A stretch of 64,000 nucleotides of DNA from Aminomonas paucivorans DSM 12260. GTDB taxonomy: Bacteria > Synergistota > Synergistia > Synergistales > Synergistaceae. A program made the position numbers and the translations under genes. The notes under the pieces were generated by a model. The model made no database searches. It saw nothing but the letters and a program-made list of their open reading frames with translations, and was not told the DNA's origin. Positions 3,725 to 11,478 of the stretch are shown here, one piece after another (the stretch's first letter is position 1; each line of letters begins with the position of its first letter). Location: NCBI RefSeq assembly GCF_000165795.1, contig NZ_CM001022.1:372001-436000 (forward strand), in the 5' to 3' direction.

Positions 3725-5317
3725 TCAGGCCAGAACGGAGTTCAGCCTCTCCAGCAGGTCCCGCCGATCCCGGTGCACCAGGCAGACCACCTGGATGTCC
3801 TCCAGGGGGTCCCCTAGGGGGACGAAGGCCCCGTCGAAGCGGGTCCGGTTCAGGTGGTCCGCCACCCGGGTCTCCGCCGCCACCCCGTCCAGGCGGCCCC
3901 AGAGGTGTTCCGCAAAGCTGGCCGCGTCGTCCTCCATCTCCGTCACTCGGGCTCCCCGGGACCGGAGCAGGGCGATGAGGTTTCCCGTGCCCCCTCTCTG
4001 GACGCCGATGGAGCGTCCCGAGAGGTTCCGGGGGTCCAGGTCGATCCTTCGGGGGCGGCCCAGGCCGTCCCGATTCGCCCCGTAGATCCGGGTCTGCATG
4101 CGCCCGTAGGGCCGGGTGGCCGCCACGGGGAAGGCGTCGAAGTACGAGTTGGGCCATCCTGCGTTGAGGATCACGTCGATGTCCCCCTCCACCAGCAGGG
4201 GGAAGACCCGGGCCCAGGGGGCCCCCACGAACCGGGGGGTCAGCCCCAGGGCCTTCGCGGCCCGTCGGGCCGTCTCCACCCCGGTGCCCTCGGAGACCCC
4301 TCCGGAGAGGCTCACCCAGGGGGCGTAGGCGTCGTCGTGCCCCACCGCCAGGATCCCCCTCCCCCGATCCAGGGCCCGGACTTCCGGGCTGCGGCGCAGG
4401 GCCTGGATGCGGGCGAACCGCTCCTGTCCCTCCGCCGCGCAGCGGTCCGCCGTCTCCACCAGGGAACGGTTGCGCCGGTCCTGGACGGCGGAGAGAGCCA
4501 GAACCTCCCGGATCCGGTGGCCGATGGCGCAGGTTTCCTCCAGCACGGTGCCTTCCGTGCGGTCCTGGGCCTTCACCTGCTTCGCCATGGCGTCCAGGCG
4601 CTTCGAGGCGTCCGAAAGACCCTCCAGGGAGGCCTGGAGGGTGCGGCGTCCCGAGTGGATGCCCTCCACGGTTCGTTCCTTGTTCTCCCGGAAGTCCTCC
4701 AGCACCGACCGGGTCTCTGCGGTGCGCTCCCCCAGGGTGCCCATGAGGGCGCCGATGCGTTTGGTGATGACCGTGCTCTCCCCCGCCAGTTTGCGCACCT
4801 CGTCCGCCACCACCGCGAAGCCCCGGCCGTGCTCCCCCGCCCGGGCCGCCTCGATGGCCGCGTTGAGGGCCAGGAGGTTCGTCTGCTTGGCCACCTTCTC
4901 GATGCCCGAGAGCATCCCCGCCACCTCCACCGCCACCCCCGCCAGGGAGGCCACCAGGGACTGGACCCCCTGGAAGGAGCGGTTCATGGCCTCCAGGGAC
5001 TCCGTGGCCTCCTCCATGATCCGGGCGCTCTCGTTTCCCCGGGCCACCGTGTCCTCCAGGCGGTTCTTCAGGTCCTCCGCCTCCCCGACGAGGGCGGAGG
5101 AGGTCCGGCGGCTTCCCTCCATCTCCCCGCAGGCCCGTTCCAGGGAGGAGCGGTTCCCCTCCAGCTCCGCAAGCAGCCCCGCCGCGTCGGTCCGGGAGAG
5201 GCGAAGGTCCTCCCTCTGCTCTCGGGCGAAGGAGCGCAGGGCTCCGTCGGCGGCGTCCAGAAGGTCCAGGAGGTCGCGCAGCACCTCCCGGGAGGGTTCG
5301 GGCAGGGTCGGGTTCAT
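3725..5317 (-). CDS. Cytoplasmic chemotaxis transducer with C-terminal solute-binding-like domain
   Basis: A signalling protein of about 530 residues with no membrane segment and no signal peptide. Residues 1-310 (numbered from the ATG at 5317) are helical and contain the highly conserved chemoreceptor hairpin tip ([19 protein letters not shown], then [14 protein letters not shown]), which docks CheA/CheW. Residues about 320-530 look like a family-3 extracellular solute-binding protein: [26 protein letters not shown], a PYGR strand and [15 protein letters not shown]. This is the reverse of the usual order (sensor first, signalling last) and the sensor would be inside the cell. The ATG at 5317 is preferred because the 34 residues before it, from an ATG at 5419, are proline-rich and unlike the family; neither start has a strong ribosome site. 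It converges on bioA. Confidence 0.85.
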
Positions 5318-5465
5318 GGGGGTCACCACTCGTTCTTCAAGGGATGGGAGAGGCCTTTTGGGGGAAGAGGGGTACGGCGAGACGGGTCTCCGAGGAGGAA
5401 GATAGGCAGAGGGCGTCATGAAAACAAGGTGATCCGTTCACAGACTTCCCGCACGGGGTGACAAA

Positions 5466-5508: not shown

Positions 5509-5730
5509 CTAGCGGTCCAGCAGGACCCGGAAGTCCCCCTCCGGGGTGGCTTCCGAGGAGACCCGGAAACCCTGTCCCCGGGCGAAGCGGGACACGTTCT
5601 CCCGGGAGGTGACGGAACTCACCAGGACCTCCAGGGCCTTGCCCGCGTGGGCGTCCGCGGCCTTCTTCGTCTCCAGCACCGGCTGGGGGCAGGAGAGCCC
5701 CCGGGCGTCCACAAGGATCCGTTCGGTCAT
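5509..5730 (-). CDS. TusA/SirA-family sulfur carrier protein
   Basis: A 73-residue protein with the TusA-fold signature: VDARGLSCPQPVLETKKA, where the cysteine of the CPxP motif (about C14) carries sulfur as a persulfide. Family members relay sulfur, or possibly selenium, between desulfurases and acceptors. It is the last gene of the minus-strand operon, 13 bases after the YedE-like membrane protein; TusA-like/YedE-like pairs are a common arrangement. It could be called YedF-like in the broad sense, but the longer selenium-type YedF is the separate gene at 8132-8728. Confidence 0.9.
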   Translation of the reverse strand: MTERILVDARGLSCPQPVLETKKAADAHAGKALEVLVSSVTSRENVSRFARGQGFRVSSEATPEGDFRVLLDR

Positions 5731-5743
5731 GAGCGTACCCTCC

Positions 5744-6850
5744 TCACACGTTCTCCCGGCGGTTCAGGAAGCCCACCGCCAGGCAGAACAGCATCCCCAC
5801 GATCCAGGCCCCCAGCACGTAGGGGGTGGGGCCCTTGGCGGAGCTGGCCAGGGTGAAGTTGTGGGCGGCCGCAGCTCCCACCAGCATGCCCAGGACGAAG
5901 ACCGCCGAGTCCCCGTCCCCTTCGCCGCTCAGGATGAACTGCCGCCCCGGGCAGCCCCCCGCCAGGGTGAAGGCCAAGCCGGAGAGGACCATGCCCAGGA
6001 AGTTCCAGAGGTGGTTCGTGTGGGCCACCGGCTGGCCCGTGGTTCCCAGGTGGAACTGTCCCAGGGCCAGGTTCGTGGCGGCGGCGGCCACGATCAGGGC
6101 GGCGATGCCCCGGAAGAGGTGGGGGTCCTTGAGCATCATGAGGTCCCGGAAGGCCCCCACGGTGCAGAAGCGGCTGCGCTGTCCCATCCAGCCCACCAGC
6201 AGCCCCACTCCCAGGGCGACCAGCAGGGGAGCGTGCTGGGAACCCGGTCCCTTGAGGGAGAAGAAGATCGGTCCCGTGGCGTCCCCGTCGGGGGTGCGCC
6301 CCATGAGGGGGGCCGCCACCAGCAGGGCCAGCAGCCCCACCGTGATCAGGGGCATCACGTACCCGGAAGCCCGGGTGGAGGGGTGGGCCCGACCCAGGTT
6401 GAAGCCGTTCCACAAGAAGCCGATCCCCAGGCCGATGCCCGCCAGGAGGCCCGCGATGCCCCCCAGGGCGGTGAGGTCTCCCCCGGAGAGGCGCAGGTAG
6501 GCCCTCCAGGGGCAGCCCAGGAAGATGAGGGCCCCGATCATGGCGAAGAAGCCCAGGAAGAAACGGACTACCGGGGCGGAACCGGAGCGGGGGCGGTACT
6601 CCCGGAAGAGCAGGGAGGCCCCGAAGGACCCCAGGAGGAGGCCCAGAATCTCCGGGCGGAGGTACTGCACCACCCCCGCGCGATGGAGCCCCAGGGCTCC
6701 GGCGATGTCCCGGGTGAAGCAGGCCACGCAGATCCCCATGTTGCCGGGGTTGCCCAGGCGTACCAGCACCGGGGCCAGGATTCCCACCACGATCCCCGTC
6801 AGGACGGGGCCCCAGGAGGAGGTGAGAGGACGATCCAGCGGTTCGAGCAC
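5744..6850 (-). CDS. yedE: YeeE/YedE-family sulfur/selenium transport membrane protein
   Basis: A 368-residue polytopic membrane protein of the YeeE/YedE (DUF395) family, which contains transporters for thiosulfate-type sulfur compounds; the YedE subgroup is linked by genome context to selenium metabolism. About ten membrane segments are visible. Characteristic cysteines lie in MGICVACFTRD, FLGCPWRAYLRL, SRFCTVGAFRD and LAGGCPGRQ, where family members pass the substrate through a cysteine relay. The start is a GTG at 6850 with GGTGAT just upstream. The 110-bp gap to the upstream desulfurase gene holds a small GC hairpin (CGGCGCC / GGCGCCG) without a T-run. It sits in the middle of the sulfur/selenium operon, supporting the subgroup call. 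Confidence 0.88.
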   Translation of the reverse strand: MLEPLDRPLTSSWGPVLTGIVVGILAPVLVRLGNPGNMGICVACFTRDIAGALGLHRAGVVQYLRPEILGLLLGSFGASLLFREYRPRSGSAPVVRFFLGFFAMIGALIFLGCPWRAYLRLSGGDLTALGGIAGLLAGIGLGIGFLWNGFNLGRAHPSTRASGYVMPLITVGLLALLVAAPLMGRTPDGDATGPIFFSLKGPGSQHAPLLVALGVGLLVGWMGQRSRFCTVGAFRDLMMLKDPHLFRGIAALIVAAAATNLALGQFHLGTTGQPVAHTNHLWNFLGMVLSGLAFTLAGGCPGRQFILSGEGDGDSAVFVLGMLVGAAAAHNFTLASSAKGPTPYVLGAWIVGMLFCLAVGFLNRRENV

Positions 6851-6960
6851 AACATCACCTTCTTCTTCAGATTGGTGTTGCCTACGGCGCCTTCCGGCGC
6901 CGGGGGGCGGGTTCAGGCGGCTCGATCCACGGCGTCACCTCCTCTCCGTCCCAAAGGGAT

Positions 6961-8127
6961 CTAGCGGCCCTCTCGGGCCAGCTCCTCCAGGGCCCGGACT
7001 GTCCGGTCCATCTCTTCGGGGGTGTTGAAGTACCCCGGGGAGAGGCGCAGGGCCCCCTGGGGGAAGGTCCCCAGGGTGCGGTGCGCCAGGGGGGAGCAGT
7101 GCAACCCCGGGCGGGACTCGATGCCGTAGCGGTCCGAAAGCTCCAGGGCCAGGGTGCCGTTGTCCCACCCGGCCAGGTTCAGGGCGAACACGGACAGCCG
7201 GTTCGACCCGTCCCGGGGGCCGTGGAGGGTCAGCCCCGGCACGGCCAGGAGCCCCGCCAGGAGACGGGCTCCCAGGCGGTGTTCCCGCTCCGCCACGACC
7301 TCGATCCCCGTCCCGGCAAGCCACTCCAGGGCCGCGGCGAGCCCCGCGATGCCCGGAAGGTTCGGGGTCCCCGCCTCGAACTTGTCCGGCAGGGTGGTGG
7401 GCTGGGTCTCCTCGTGGGAGAAGCTGCCCGTGCCCCCTTCCACGAAGGGGGCGCAGCGCTCCGCCAGGTCGGGTCTCCAGAGGATCCCCCCCACCCCCTG
7501 GGGGCCCATGAGTCCCTTGTGGCCGGTGAAGCACAGGGCCCCCAGGTCCCACCGAGCCGCGTCCAAGGGCACCACCCCGGCGGTCTGGGCGGCGTCCAGC
7601 ACCAGGGGAACCTTTGCGCGGGCGCAGAGAGGGGCCAGGGCGTCCAGGTCCTGCAGGGCGCCGCAGACGTTGCTGCCGTGGGACAGCACCGCCAGGTCCG
7701 CGGGTTCTCTCAGGGCCTCCTCCAGGGTCCGGGGGGCCAGGAAACCCTCGGGGGAGCAGGGCAGCACCTCCAACCGCACCCCTTCGGCCTCCAGGCGGCG
7801 CAGGGGGCGCACCACTCCGTTGTGTTCCATGGAGGAGGTGAGGACCCGCATTCCCGGCCGCAGCAGCCCCTTGAGCACCACGTTCAGGGATTCGGTGACG
7901 TTGGCGGTGAAGGTGACGTAGCGCGGGTCCCCCCCGGCGTGTCCCCCCAGGAGAGAGGAGACGCGCTCCCGGCAGGTGGTCACCAGGTCCAGGGTGGAGA
8001 GGTCCCGGGATGCCGCGGAGCCCCGGGCCAGGTTGGCTCCCCCCGTGCGGAGGAACGCCGCCATGGCCTCGGGCACGCAGTCCGGCTTGGGCCAGGTGGT
8101 GGCGGCGTTGTTCAGGTAGAGGGCCAT
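6961..8127 (-). CDS. Cysteine desulfurase-like class V aminotransferase
   Basis: A 388-residue PLP enzyme of the NifS/CsdA fold. Visible features are the N-terminal NNAATTWPKP, Asp178 in LVLDAAQ, the PLP lysine K204 in FTGHKG, and a C-terminal loop cysteine in RPGLHCSPLAHRTLG that could carry the persulfide or selenide. The sequence type resembles the cysteine-desulfurase subfamily often linked to selenium and sulfur gene clusters rather than housekeeping IscS. It follows the selenium-type YedF by 4 bases, so the two are probably co-translated. Likely role: release sulfur (or selenium) from cysteine (or selenocysteine) for the carriers encoded around it. The actual substrate cannot be told from sequence. 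Confidence 0.88.
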   Translation of the reverse strand: MALYLNNAATTWPKPDCVPEAMAAFLRTGGANLARGSAASRDLSTLDLVTTCRERVSSLLGGHAGGDPRYVTFTANVTESLNVVLKGLLRPGMRVLTSSMEHNGVVRPLRRLEAEGVRLEVLPCSPEGFLAPRTLEEALREPADLAVLSHGSNVCGALQDLDALAPLCARAKVPLVLDAAQTAGVVPLDAARWDLGALCFTGHKGLMGPQGVGGILWRPDLAERCAPFVEGGTGSFSHEETQPTTLPDKFEAGTPNLPGIAGLAAALEWLAGTGIEVVAEREHRLGARLLAGLLAVPGLTLHGPRDGSNRLSVFALNLAGWDNGTLALELSDRYGIESRPGLHCSPLAHRTLGTFPQGALRLSPGYFNTPEEMDRTVRALEELAREGR

Positions 8128-8131
8128 GGGA

Positions 8132-8728
8132 TCAGCCCATCACCACGGGCTTGGCGGTGCCGTATACGGCCTCGGTGATCTCGAACATGTTGGAGATGGT
8201 GCCCACCGCCACCCGATCGGTGACGTCGAAGTGCTTCGTGCAGGTGCCGCACACCAGCACCCGCACCCCCTTGGCGGCCATCTCCCCCAGGGTCTCGTGG
8301 GCGGAGGAGTCCTTCAGGGCCAAGAAGACCGCCCCGTTCATCAGAGCCAGCACCGAGGGCAGGGGGGTCCGCTGGGCCAGGGTGCCCAGGAAGGCCTTCA
8401 TGAGGGCATCCCCCAGCTCCGGGGATTCGCTCCCCAGGGTGCGGGAGAGGAGGAGCACCCCGTAGTCCCCCGTGGCGGGGGAGGAGGGGCAGGTCAGGGC
8501 GGGGGCGGGTCCCGCCTCGCCGGTCTTCTCCGCCTTGAGCACCAGCCGGGGGACCTCTCCACCGGGGGTCACGGAGTATCCCTGGCTCTCCAGGAACCGG
8601 GTCACGTTGGAGGCGGAGACGGGGTTGTCCACCGTCACCTCCAGGGACGCCGCCCCTCCGTCCACCGCCGCCTTGGCCAGCATCACCGGCTGGGGGCAGG
8701 GTTTGCCCGTCGCGTCGATCTGCATCAT
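8132..8728 (-). CDS. yedF: Selenium-metabolism sulfurtransferase-like protein YedF
   Basis: A 198-residue two-part protein. Residues 1-70 are a TusA-like domain with the CPQP motif (C11-P-Q-P). Residues about 85-198 are a DsrE-like domain beginning DYGVLLLSRTLG and containing VLVCGTCTKHF, with a CxxC-like pair. This layout matches the family named YedF that co-occurs with selenium metabolism genes. Start: ATG at 8728, 9 bases after GGAGG. The upstream gene's TGA overlaps this ATG (TGATG on the minus strand). The function in the family is not established; carrier or adaptor for sulfur or selenium is the usual proposal. Confidence 0.88.
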   Translation of the reverse strand: MMQIDATGKPCPQPVMLAKAAVDGGAASLEVTVDNPVSASNVTRFLESQGYSVTPGGEVPRLVLKAEKTGEAGPAPALTCPSSPATGDYGVLLLSRTLGSESPELGDALMKAFLGTLAQRTPLPSVLALMNGAVFLALKDSSAHETLGEMAAKGVRVLVCGTCTKHFDVTDRVAVGTISNMFEITEAVYGTAKPVVMG

Positions 8729-9300
8729 GATCTGAAACCTCCTTGTCCGTCCCCGTCGGGACGGGAGAATGCCCCCAAGGGGGCGAAGGAGAGGGCCGCC
8801 GGGCGGCACCCCTCCGGATTGCCTTCGTCCACCCCCGCGAAGGGGAGGAAGAGTCCCCGCTCCTCCAGGCAGAGGCGAAGCTGGTCCATGAAGACCCCCG
8901 GTCCGGGGATCCGCCGCGCCTCCGGGACCCCCTCGGCGGGTTCCCCGCCGCAGAAGCCCCCGCAGGTGCACCCCACCCCGCAGCTGGGGCTACCCTCCGG
9001 GCCCACCACCCCCGCCACCCGGAAGCTCTCCCGGAGGGAATCCTCCACCTGGTCCAGCAGGGGCTCCAGGATGCGGCGACAGTGCCGCCGGAAGGGAGGG
9101 GTGTCGTACTGCTCCGAGGTCATCCCCCAGCGCCGCAGGCCCAGGTAGGTGGTCTCGGGACAGGGGAGCTGGATCACCCCGAAGCCCTCCCGGATCAGGG
9201 GGAGCACCAGGGGTTCCAGGACCGCCGGGGCGTCGTTGCCCCGCAGTTTCGCGGAGCCGTTGAGGAGGCAGTGGGCCAGGAGGATCAGCCGACGGGTCAT
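8725..9300 (-). CDS. TudS-related putative desulfidase (CD3072-like)
   Basis: A 191-residue protein related to TudS/DUF523, an Fe-S enzyme family that removes sulfur from 2-thiouracil. The three cysteines spaced like the TudS [4Fe-4S] ligands are visible: C11 (AHCLLNGSAK), C47 (QLPCPE) and C107 (GSPSCGVG). Three more cysteines follow at about 111, 113 and 117 (GCTCGGFC), an unusually cysteine-dense loop. The start overlaps the stop of the upstream ECF S-component, and the stop overlaps the YedF start. The context with an importer S-component suggests the substrate is taken up, then desulfurated. That is inference; the family is named in databases only as putative. Confidence 0.82.
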   Translation of the reverse strand: MTRRLILLAHCLLNGSAKLRGNDAPAVLEPLVLPLIREGFGVIQLPCPETTYLGLRRWGMTSEQYDTPPFRRHCRRILEPLLDQVEDSLRESFRVAGVVGPEGSPSCGVGCTCGGFCGGEPAEGVPEARRIPGPGVFMDQLRLCLEERGLFLPFAGVDEGNPEGCRPAALSFAPLGAFSRPDGDGQGGFRS

Positions 9301-9869
9301 GCTTTGTCGGATGCCTCCCGGGTCCGGTAGCGGGCGGGGAGCCGGGGGAGGAGGAGGGCCACCAGGACGCAGCTGGCCACCTTGTCCACCAGGTTTCCGG
9401 CGATGCGGGGCAGGAAGGCGGCGGTGAAGATGTCCTGGCCGCTCTTCATCAGCCACAGGAAGAGGAAGTCCGTGCCGCCCCCGGTAAGGCCCCCGTAGAT
9501 CCACACGGCGATGGGGGTGCCCACCAGGGGGCACAGCACCGCCAGGACCAGGCCCACGGCGGCTGCCACGGGAACGGAGAAGCGGAAGCGCCGGGCCGCG
9601 AAGCCCACCACGAGCCCCACCGTCACGTTCACCAGGGCGAAGGGGATGTCCCGGGGGTTGGTGAGGACCCCCTGGATCAGGTTGGTGCACAGGCCGATGA
9701 GGGCCCCCTGGAAGGGCCCCAGCAGAGCCGCCCCCAGGATGGTGCCCAGGGTGTCCAGAAAGAGCAGGGGGATCTGGAGGGCCTGGACCGTCGTCCCCAG
9801 GGCCAGGTTGGTCACCACGCAGAGGGCCCCCAGGGTGAGGGCGAAGGTGTTTCGTGCCAAGGCGTTCAC
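9297..9869 (-). CDS. Putative ECF transporter S-component (CD3073-like)
   Basis: A 190-residue membrane protein with about six hydrophobic segments, early ALCVVTNLALG, LLFLDTLGTILGAALLGPFQGALIG and a conserved NPRDIPFALVNVTVG loop, like ECF S-components. Database families place this type next to the TudS-related gene (the CD3072/CD3073 pair of Clostridioides difficile), which is exactly the arrangement here. The start is a GTG at 9869 overlapping the upstream DUF3343 stop (GTGA). Substrate unknown. It lacks its own EcfA/T module in the window, as do bioY and queT. Confidence 0.8.
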   Translation of the reverse strand: MNALARNTFALTLGALCVVTNLALGTTVQALQIPLLFLDTLGTILGAALLGPFQGALIGLCTNLIQGVLTNPRDIPFALVNVTVGLVVGFAARRFRFSVPVAAAVGLVLAVLCPLVGTPIAVWIYGGLTGGGTDFLFLWLMKSGQDIFTAAFLPRIAGNLVDKVASCVLVALLLPRLPARYRTREASDKA

Positions 9870-10192
9870 GTCCTTTCGTCGCCGGAGGCTCCGAGGCCCC
9901 CGCAGGGCCCCTCCCGGAGGGGCCGTCCTTCGCATACCAGGTCCACGGGCACCGAAAGGGCGTCGGCGAAGCGCTGAACCTCCCCTTCCAGGTCCGAGGC
10001 GAAGCGCAGGGCCAGGCCGCAGCTCGCCGCCAGGTGCCGGGGGGTGGGGCAGAGGGCATGGGGCAGCCCCTGTACCCGCAGAGATCGGTGGAGCCGGAAG
10101 CCGTCGGTGGCGGTCCGGAAGAGGGCGTAGCTCCACGGAGGGCCGCTTCCCCCCGTGGACTGCCCCGAAGGGGGAGGTCCGAAACGCTCCAT
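9866..10192 (-). CDS. DUF3343 family putative Se/S carrier protein
   Basis: A 108-residue protein with the DUF3343 core: a short N-terminal strand (SYALFRTATDGFRLHRSL), then ALCPTPRHLAASCGLALRF. Proteins of this kind are annotated as putative selenium/sulfur carriers, based on a conserved cysteine in the S-x-CG segment and on gene neighbourhood. Start ATG at 10192 follows TAGGAG by 6 bases. It is 8 bases after the double-cubane reductase gene and overlaps the ECF S-component gene. The first 20 residues are rich in proline and glycine and may be a linker or a slightly long start. Confidence 0.8.
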   Translation of the reverse strand: MERFGPPPSGQSTGGSGPPWSYALFRTATDGFRLHRSLRVQGLPHALCPTPRHLAASCGLALRFASDLEGEVQRFADALSVPVDLVCEGRPLREGPCGGLGASGDERT

Positions 10193-10200
10193 CCCGTCTC

Positions 10201-11478
10201 CTAACCCAGGTTTTCGAGGAAGGCCTCGATGCGGGTGCGCAGCTGTCCCTCGTCCCCGGGGGTGTAGTCCGTCTCCAGGGAAAGCAGGGGGATGCCCTCC
10301 TGGGCCAGGCGGCGGCGCAGGTTCTCCCCCTCCACCTGGTAGGTGGTGCAGAAGCTCAGGGTGGCGTCCACCACCCCCTGGGCTCCGGTCTCCCGGGCCA
10401 GGCGCACCACGTCGTCGAACCGTTCCTCGTTGGGACTGAAGCAGGCGCAGTGGATCCCGTCCAGGTAGCGGTGGGCCAGGGCGTCCAGGAGGGAGGGCAG
10501 GTCGCGGACCCCCGAGAGGTCGGTGGTGCTCTCGTAGTAGCGGGAGCCGGTGCAGTTCTCCTCCCCCACCACCACGGCGCCGCTGGTCTCGATGAGGTGG
10601 TGGATCTTCCAGTTGGGCACCACCACGGGGGTCCCGGTGAGGAGGACCCGCTTCGTCCCCACGGGGAAGGCCCCCTTTCCCTGGGCGATCCGGGCCAGGC
10701 ACTCCTCCGCCAGCTGGTTCGTCATGGCGGTGTAGCGCGGCACGTCGTCGTAGAAGGCGATCTGGGTGGTCACCAGGGCGTCGGTCCCCGAAAGGGGAGA
10801 GGGGTCGTTTTTGCGGGTTCCGTGGAGTTTCTGGAGGGCCCGCCTCTTGTCGTCCACCCGCCGGGTCGCCTCCAGGAGGTTCTCGTAGGTGAGGGTCCGG
10901 CCGGTGCGGCGCTCCAGCTCCTCCGTCAGCCGCCGGATCTCCTCCCGCCACAGGGCGAAGCCCGCAGGGGACTTGCGATTGGGCAGGTCCATCACGTGCA
11001 TGGGGACGTGCTGCCCCAGGATCTCCCAGGCCTTCTTCTTGCCGTCGCAGGTGTTTTCCCCCACCACCAGGTCCACGGACTGGAAGTAGGGACAGGTGCG
11101 GGAGAGCTTGGCCCCCAGCCCGGCCTTGATGAGGGGGCAGAGGGAGCGGGGCAGCACCTTCTCCCCCGCGGGGACCCAGAACTGGGAGCCCGCACACAGC
11201 CCCACGAGGACGCCCCCCAGGGCGGAGACGATCTCTTCGGGGACGTAGACGCAGAAGGAGCCCACCACCAGGCCACCTCGGGCCTTGTGGTCCGCCAGCT
11301 CCTGGATCCGGAGGCCGTGCACCTCCGCGATGACCATGTTGAAGTAGTCCATCCCCTCGGGGCGGTCGGTCTGGTTCAGGAAGGTCTCCTCGAACAGGGG
11401 GGGGAGAGCCGCGCAGAGCTGATCGTGGGTGTCCAGGTCCATGCCCAGGCTTTCCCACAGGGCGTGGTAATCGGCCAT
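10201..11478 (-). CDS. Double-cubane-cluster anaerobic reductase (2-hydroxyacyl-CoA dehydratase D-like)
   Basis: A 425-residue protein of the HgdB/BcrB-like fold. Family hallmark ENTCDGKKKAWE is at about 141-152, with further cysteines in GSFCVY (76), SLCPLI (114), SRTCPYF (129), ENCTGSRYY, CACFSPNEERF and LSFCTTYQ. Double-cubane-cluster proteins couple ATP-driven electron injection to difficult low-potential reductions; a partner activator ATPase (HgdC-like) is not in the window. It is the first gene of the eight-gene operon. The ribosome site GAGGAGG lies about 12 bases before the ATG, a long spacing. The natural substrate of this family is mostly unknown; here a sulfur or selenium compound is suggested by context only. 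Confidence 0.85.
   Translation of the reverse strand: MADYHALWESLGMDLDTHDQLCAALPPLFEETFLNQTDRPEGMDYFNMVIAEVHGLRIQELADHKARGGLVVGSFCVYVPEEIVSALGGVLVGLCAGSQFWVPAGEKVLPRSLCPLIKAGLGAKLSRTCPYFQSVDLVVGENTCDGKKKAWEILGQHVPMHVMDLPNRKSPAGFALWREEIRRLTEELERRTGRTLTYENLLEATRRVDDKRRALQKLHGTRKNDPSPLSGTDALVTTQIAFYDDVPRYTAMTNQLAEECLARIAQGKGAFPVGTKRVLLTGTPVVVPNWKIHHLIETSGAVVVGEENCTGSRYYESTTDLSGVRDLPSLLDALAHRYLDGIHCACFSPNEERFDDVVRLARETGAQGVVDATLSFCTTYQVEGENLRRRLAQEGIPLLSLETDYTPGDEGQLRTRIEAFLENLG

Follow-up and report, generated by a model that had tools for sequence, protein, structure and literature searches.

The window analyzed here, a 64,000-nt stretch of the single-contig, 2.63-Mb genome of Aminomonas paucivorans DSM 12260, carries eight consecutive open reading frames (ORFs) at positions 5509–11478, all on the (−) strand. 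The first gene encodes a double-cubane-cluster reductase (DCCP; 10201–11478; NF040772, 464.5 bits against a cut-off of 350) and is followed by genes for a 108-aa DUF3343 protein, a putative Se/S carrier (9866–10192; PF11823, 45.2 bits, cut-off 25); a 190-aa ECF S component of the CD3073 family with a GTG start (9297–9869; NF045596, 245.1 bits, cut-off 180); a 191-aa TudS-related putative desulfidase of the CD3072 family (8725–9300; NF045597, 145.3 bits, cut-off 130); and the 198-aa sulfurtransferase-like selenium-metabolism protein YedF (8132–8728; TIGR03527, 157.4 bits, cut-off 110). The remaining three encode a 388-aa cysteine desulfurase or selenocysteine-lyase-like PLP enzyme (6961–8127; TIGR01977, 377.4 bits, cut-off 377), a 368-aa putative selenium transporter of the YedE family with a GTG start (5744–6850; TIGR04112, 482.2 bits, cut-off 200) and, last, a 73-aa TusA-like carrier (5509–5730; PF01206, 62.1 bits, cut-off 28.6). 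Seven of the eight proteins scored clearly above their curated cut-offs, and the desulfurase barely reached its own. Like that enzyme, SclA of Enterococcus faecalis is a PLP desulfurase-family protein, a selenocysteine lyase encoded beside selenium genes (PMC13188914), but the window desulfurase scored 322.6 bits with the SclA model NF040779 (cut-off 525) and is therefore not called SclA.

From DCCP to TusA, the intergenic gaps are 8, −4, −4, −4, 4, 110, and 13 bp, i.e., at six of the seven junctions the genes either overlap or lie no more than 13 bp apart. Specifically, the DUF3343, ECF, TudS-like, and YedF genes are linked by three consecutive 4-bp overlaps (GTGA or ATGA), and the sole loose junction is the 110-bp spacer between the desulfurase and YedE genes (6851–6960), which contains a GC-rich hairpin that lacks a T-run and whose fold z-score (−1.5) does not go beyond that of shuffled sequences. 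On the coding strand of the operon, a single terminator-like call was obtained; it fell inside YedF and within shuffle expectation. A sequence-only reading of this DNA had given the same positions, families, and tight spacing (most junctions overlapping or under 15 bp apart), and all of these agreed with our results. At 3725–5419, the window encodes a chemoreceptor-type protein in which a family-3 solute-binding domain lies C-terminal to the signaling domain, an unusual order.

Relation to known selenium operons

The host carries a selD gene with an in-frame TGA and a selB gene scoring above its cut-off and, judging from these genes, uses selenium. YedE, YedF, and DUF3343, each above its cut-off in this selD-bearing host, make up a selenium set, and the earlier assignment of the locus to selenium metabolism is thereby borne out. 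Double-cubane reductases are activated, or driven, by DCCPR, a BadF-type ATPase. In the genomes G004 and G012 of a sister genus, the genes DCCP-DCCPR-DUF3343-YedF-desulfurase-YedE-TusA lie on one strand in that order; six of the eight window genes keep their order in both, which indicates that the arrangement of the operon is not due to chance. Compared with these genomes, the window lacks DCCPR and has the ECF S component and TudS-like genes inserted between DUF3343 and YedF. G004 also has, away from its selenium operon, an ECF gene cut to a 37-residue stub (L039:9096–9206, on contig C1) adjoining an intact TudS gene.

The window DCCP matched the solved DCCP structure 6eno over its full length (E = 2e-132), but the window copy has no BadF-type ATPase gene beside it. 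The sole clear BadF-type ATPase of the host is encoded at 2.27 Mb (L087:8301–10286), where it adjoins a second DCCP, and it is the likely source of an activator for the window DCCP. Among 121 Synergistota genomes, YedF occurred in 55 of 58 DCCP carriers versus 25 of 63 others (P = 3e-11).

In the parts of the literature that concern these genes, YedE, YedF, DUF3343, and Sec lyase were tied to selenium by Lin et al. 2015, in a table that also includes 2-hydroxyglutaryl-CoA-dehydratase-like genes (PMC5322559), and DCCP, which occurs in selenium-linked clusters, was provisionally linked to selenium by Kountz and Balskus (PMC10418091). The neighborhoods outlined in these passages share six of the window's eight genes, whereas the window is without DCCPR and has gained the ECF S component and the TudS-like enzyme; the CD3072 and CD3073 families are not named in the same passages. 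Overall, the operon is a modified form of a known type of selenium operon, and six of its genes are the known set.

The CD3073/CD3072 pair and its predicted chemistry

The structural model of the window CD3073 protein (pLDDT 89) had PanT, FolT, BioY, RibU, and ThiT as its top PDB folds (TM 0.55–0.66), and the protein is accordingly modeled as having the ECF S-component fold. For CD3072, there was no solved relative by sequence, and its structural model matched no solved fold. Residues C11, C47, C107, E49, and S104 were invariant in all 41 diverse CD3072 proteins compared, and they correspond by motif and spacing to Cys10, Cys43, Cys104, Glu45, and Ser101 of TudS (PMC10611767). CD3072 thus shares the three cluster cysteines, the CPE glutamate, and the SPS serine with the TudS/DUF523 desulfidases (PF04463; Fuchs et al. 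2023, PMC10611767) but differs from them in belonging to its own NCBIfam family, in being paired with importers, in occurring in selenium users, and in falling below the Pfam cut-off (21.7 versus 34.7 bits; E = 2e-4 for the window protein). PF04463 was matched by 16 of 41 CD3072 relatives at E ≤ 1e-3. Since the cut-off is missed and the catalytic residues are kept, we describe the protein as predicted to work like TudS, not as being TudS. A standard TudS protein was not found in the loci examined, and E. coli YbgA was discarded as a TudS reference because it is annotated as DUF1722 only.

The substrates of the characterized TudS enzymes are thiouracils and 4-thio-UMP; the enzymes bind sulfur at the free iron of a [4Fe-4S] cluster, from which water displaces it in a non-redox reaction (PMC10611767). 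The sequence-only reading had proposed that the locus strips S or Se from its substrate reductively; given this non-redox chemistry and a reductase that has no ATPase partner in the operon, such stripping is not supported for the TudS-like enzyme.

Distribution of the pair across genomes

A scan with one genome per species returned 45 loci with an ECF gene, and a TudS gene was detected by profile in 39 of them, in either order and sometimes divergent. CD3072/CD3073 carriers come from many families of two phyla, Bacillota and Synergistota, and 53 of 55 CD3072 proteins were less than 85% identical; the pair is widely conserved, as had been stated before, and its strong tie to selenium use (see below) adds to that earlier statement. 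The proposed pairing of an importer with a TudS-like enzyme, with carriers nearby, is likewise supported: the two window proteins exceed both family cut-offs and are encoded next to each other, and DUF3343, YedF, and TusA lie in the same operon. The typical pair stands alone, whereas that of the window is fused into a selenium operon. Elsewhere, it joins DCCP/DUF3343 only in some Synergistota, with the order DCCP-ECF-TudS-DUF3343-ATPase in L041 and L025/L043, which differs from the window order, so that at least two arrangements combine the pair with DCCP. The window DUF3343 protein retains a Cys-containing CPTPRHLAASCG stretch common to L025 and L041. In other genomes, neither YedE nor the desulfurase was found to adjoin the pair, and YedF did so only once. 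In Lachnospiraceae loci, and only there, genes for ECF ATPases and a T component come after the pair, an arrangement that speaks for a functional transporter. Rfam searches of the window and 21 loci revealed no riboswitch element marking the pair, and an FMN riboswitch in L059 was rejected as a ligand clue because it precedes a separate upstream gene. In L026 (411–8804) and L040, TudS-ECF is preceded on its own strand by genes for a xanthine-dehydrogenase-like Mo hydroxylase and an SsnA-like amidohydrolase and by a dihydroorotate-dehydrogenase-like gene; the SsnA-like gene of L026 (294.6 bits, cut-off 455.5) was not counted as a selenium gene.

Further analysis revealed other importers beside CD3072. 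Where the CD3072 gene lies away from an ECF gene, it is accompanied by CUT1-type ABC importers in three genomes (G312, G491, and G313) and by NMT1-type importers in two (G374 and G277), and it has no adjacent importer in G370; in G456, a CUT1-type importer also lies beside the ECF-TudS pair. These ECF, CUT1-type, and NMT1-type associations make CD3072 plus an importer a recurrent unit, and the three importer classes may reflect more than one substrate. In L180, L181, L183, and L187, CD3072 shares an operon with a CUT1/UgpB-like ABC importer, or the importer lies divergently next to the ECF-TudS pair; the binding proteins are 36–82% identical. This importer is a possible second import route. 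Two genomes that lack selD have lower-scoring TudS relatives adjoining a ThiI/QueC-like ATP-pyrophosphatase (L197:7632–8845 and L198:6004–7223), perhaps as a separate sulfur-transfer pair.

Physical links to selenium genes were also observed. The selenium LysR regulator (NF040786, above cut-off) is adjacent to or at most two genes from the pair in L048, L060, and L064 and ~7 kb from it in L075, and SelD lies 5 kb beyond the pair in L048. In G374, a Clostridia genome, a second CD3072 gene and an NMT1-type ABC importer are located between DCCP and YedF, in a stretch adjoining SaoX, SaoB, SaoP, SaoE, SaoT, and SaoA. The whole forms a selenium island on contig C5 (L199:12737–19250 and L184:99–13260), and a gene for a binding protein of the glycine-betaine type lies close by.

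Among the genomes behind the ECF loci of the species scan, 42 of 44 had selD above its cut-off. In a sample of 343 Clostridia genomes, 13 carried CD3073, set off from lower scores by a clear gap (230 versus 121 bits), and 17 carried CD3072, including all 13 CD3073 carriers. selD was present in 87 of the 343 (25%) but in 13 of 13 CD3073 carriers (Fisher's test, 9e-9) and in 17 of 17 CD3072 carriers (2e-11), with significance overstated because the test takes genomes as independent and ignores shared ancestry. Leaving out the genome on which the sample was centered gave 3e-8 and 8e-11, respectively. In comparison, control genomes with only weaker ECF relatives had selD at the baseline rate (21 of 77, P = 0.27). 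Among selD genomes, CD3072 accompanied selB (16 of 17 versus 35 of 62, P = 0.004), and the one CD3072 genome with neither selB nor selU, G358, nevertheless has selD. Of a set of 14 control genomes, two have selD, and M. jannaschii, which is one of these, was the only genome where CD3072 exceeded its cut-off. The pair, therefore, occurs almost only in selenium users, a strong link. The sequence-only reading had called for mapping all eight genes against selD: the pair does track selD, but the eight genes do not form one unit elsewhere, and the idea that they travel together fails because the window's other six almost never adjoin the pair. A role in recycling selenouridine tRNA from within the cell was considered and rejected: SelU was not enriched with CD3072 (11 of 17 versus 30 of 62, P = 0.28), and selU was also not found in the window genome.

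A candidate import-and-release module

We favor, with a probability of about 0.5, the reading that a two-gene import-and-release module (CD3073 plus CD3072) has been inserted into a Se/S-handling operon, most likely with an organic selenium or thio substrate and hydrolytic release. In the mechanism that we infer, a small organic Se (or S) compound would enter the cell through the CD3073 S component, with an ECF module encoded elsewhere supplying the energy. The CD3072 enzyme would hold a [4Fe-4S] cluster on its three cysteines with one iron free to bind the chalcogen atom, which water would displace with the assistance of Glu49 and Ser104; Se or S would thus be freed without net reduction, and a reductant would not be needed. 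DUF3343, YedF, and TusA would act as carriers that take over the released Se or S and deliver it to SelD, with the desulfurase contributing Se or S from (seleno)cysteine and YedE bringing in further Se/S species. DCCP more likely performs a separate low-potential reduction, borrowing the ATPase encoded at 2.27 Mb. A narrower version, which we hold somewhat more tentatively, is that CD3073 and CD3072 are a dedicated organoselenium acquisition module, consisting of an ECF seleno-compound importer and an iron-sulfur deselenidase, with other importers in some genomes.

Alternatively, the pair may import and desulfurize thiolated nucleobases or related thio-compounds for C, N, or S, in which case its overlap with selenium use would be indirect, both being traits of anaerobes that ferment amino acids or purines. 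The substrates of the known TudS enzymes fit this explanation, as do the xanthine-dehydrogenase-like and dihydroorotate/dihydropyrimidine-dehydrogenase-like genes near the pair in L026/L040 and a nucleoside hydrolase near CD3072 in L185. However, selD accompanied CD3072 in all 17 carriers of the Clostridia sample while the ECF-relative control was flat; YedF, DCCP, SelD, and the selenium LysR regulator are physically linked to the pair in separate lineages; and the lower-scoring TudS relatives of the two selD-less genomes adjoin a ThiI-like gene, not an importer. We consider this explanation rather unlikely.

The three 4-bp overlaps that bind the pair into the operon speak against its being a chance insertion that serves some unconnected function (vitamin salvage, for example) in what is otherwise only a known selenium operon. 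The pair also joins DCCP/DUF3343 in a different gene order in L025 and L041, and every CD3072 carrier in the sample uses selenium, so that such an accident appears improbable, even though the sister genomes carry the operon without the pair and most pairs elsewhere stand alone. Least probable, with only a slim chance of being correct, is a function in metal or metalloid (organometal) handling like that of the Sao system, in which Se or Fe-S chemistry would break carbon-metal bonds; it draws on the CD3072 copy and NMT1-type importer located among the six Sao genes, an arrangement seen in one genome only, whereas importers accompany CD3072 and carrier proteins surround its gene in the window.

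The new point is that CD3072/CD3073 constitute a candidate import-and-release module found in selenium users, a proposal that is testable; no paper in the literature collection searched was found to link these families to selenium uptake. If the organoselenium reading is true, the module, spread over Bacillota and Synergistota, would provide the specific system for bacterial selenium uptake that has so far been missing, and TudS chemistry would extend from sulfur to selenium. Uncharacterized and known merely by names taken from C. difficile locus tags, CD3072 and CD3073 are now a concrete candidate for the uptake of organic selenium in anaerobes.
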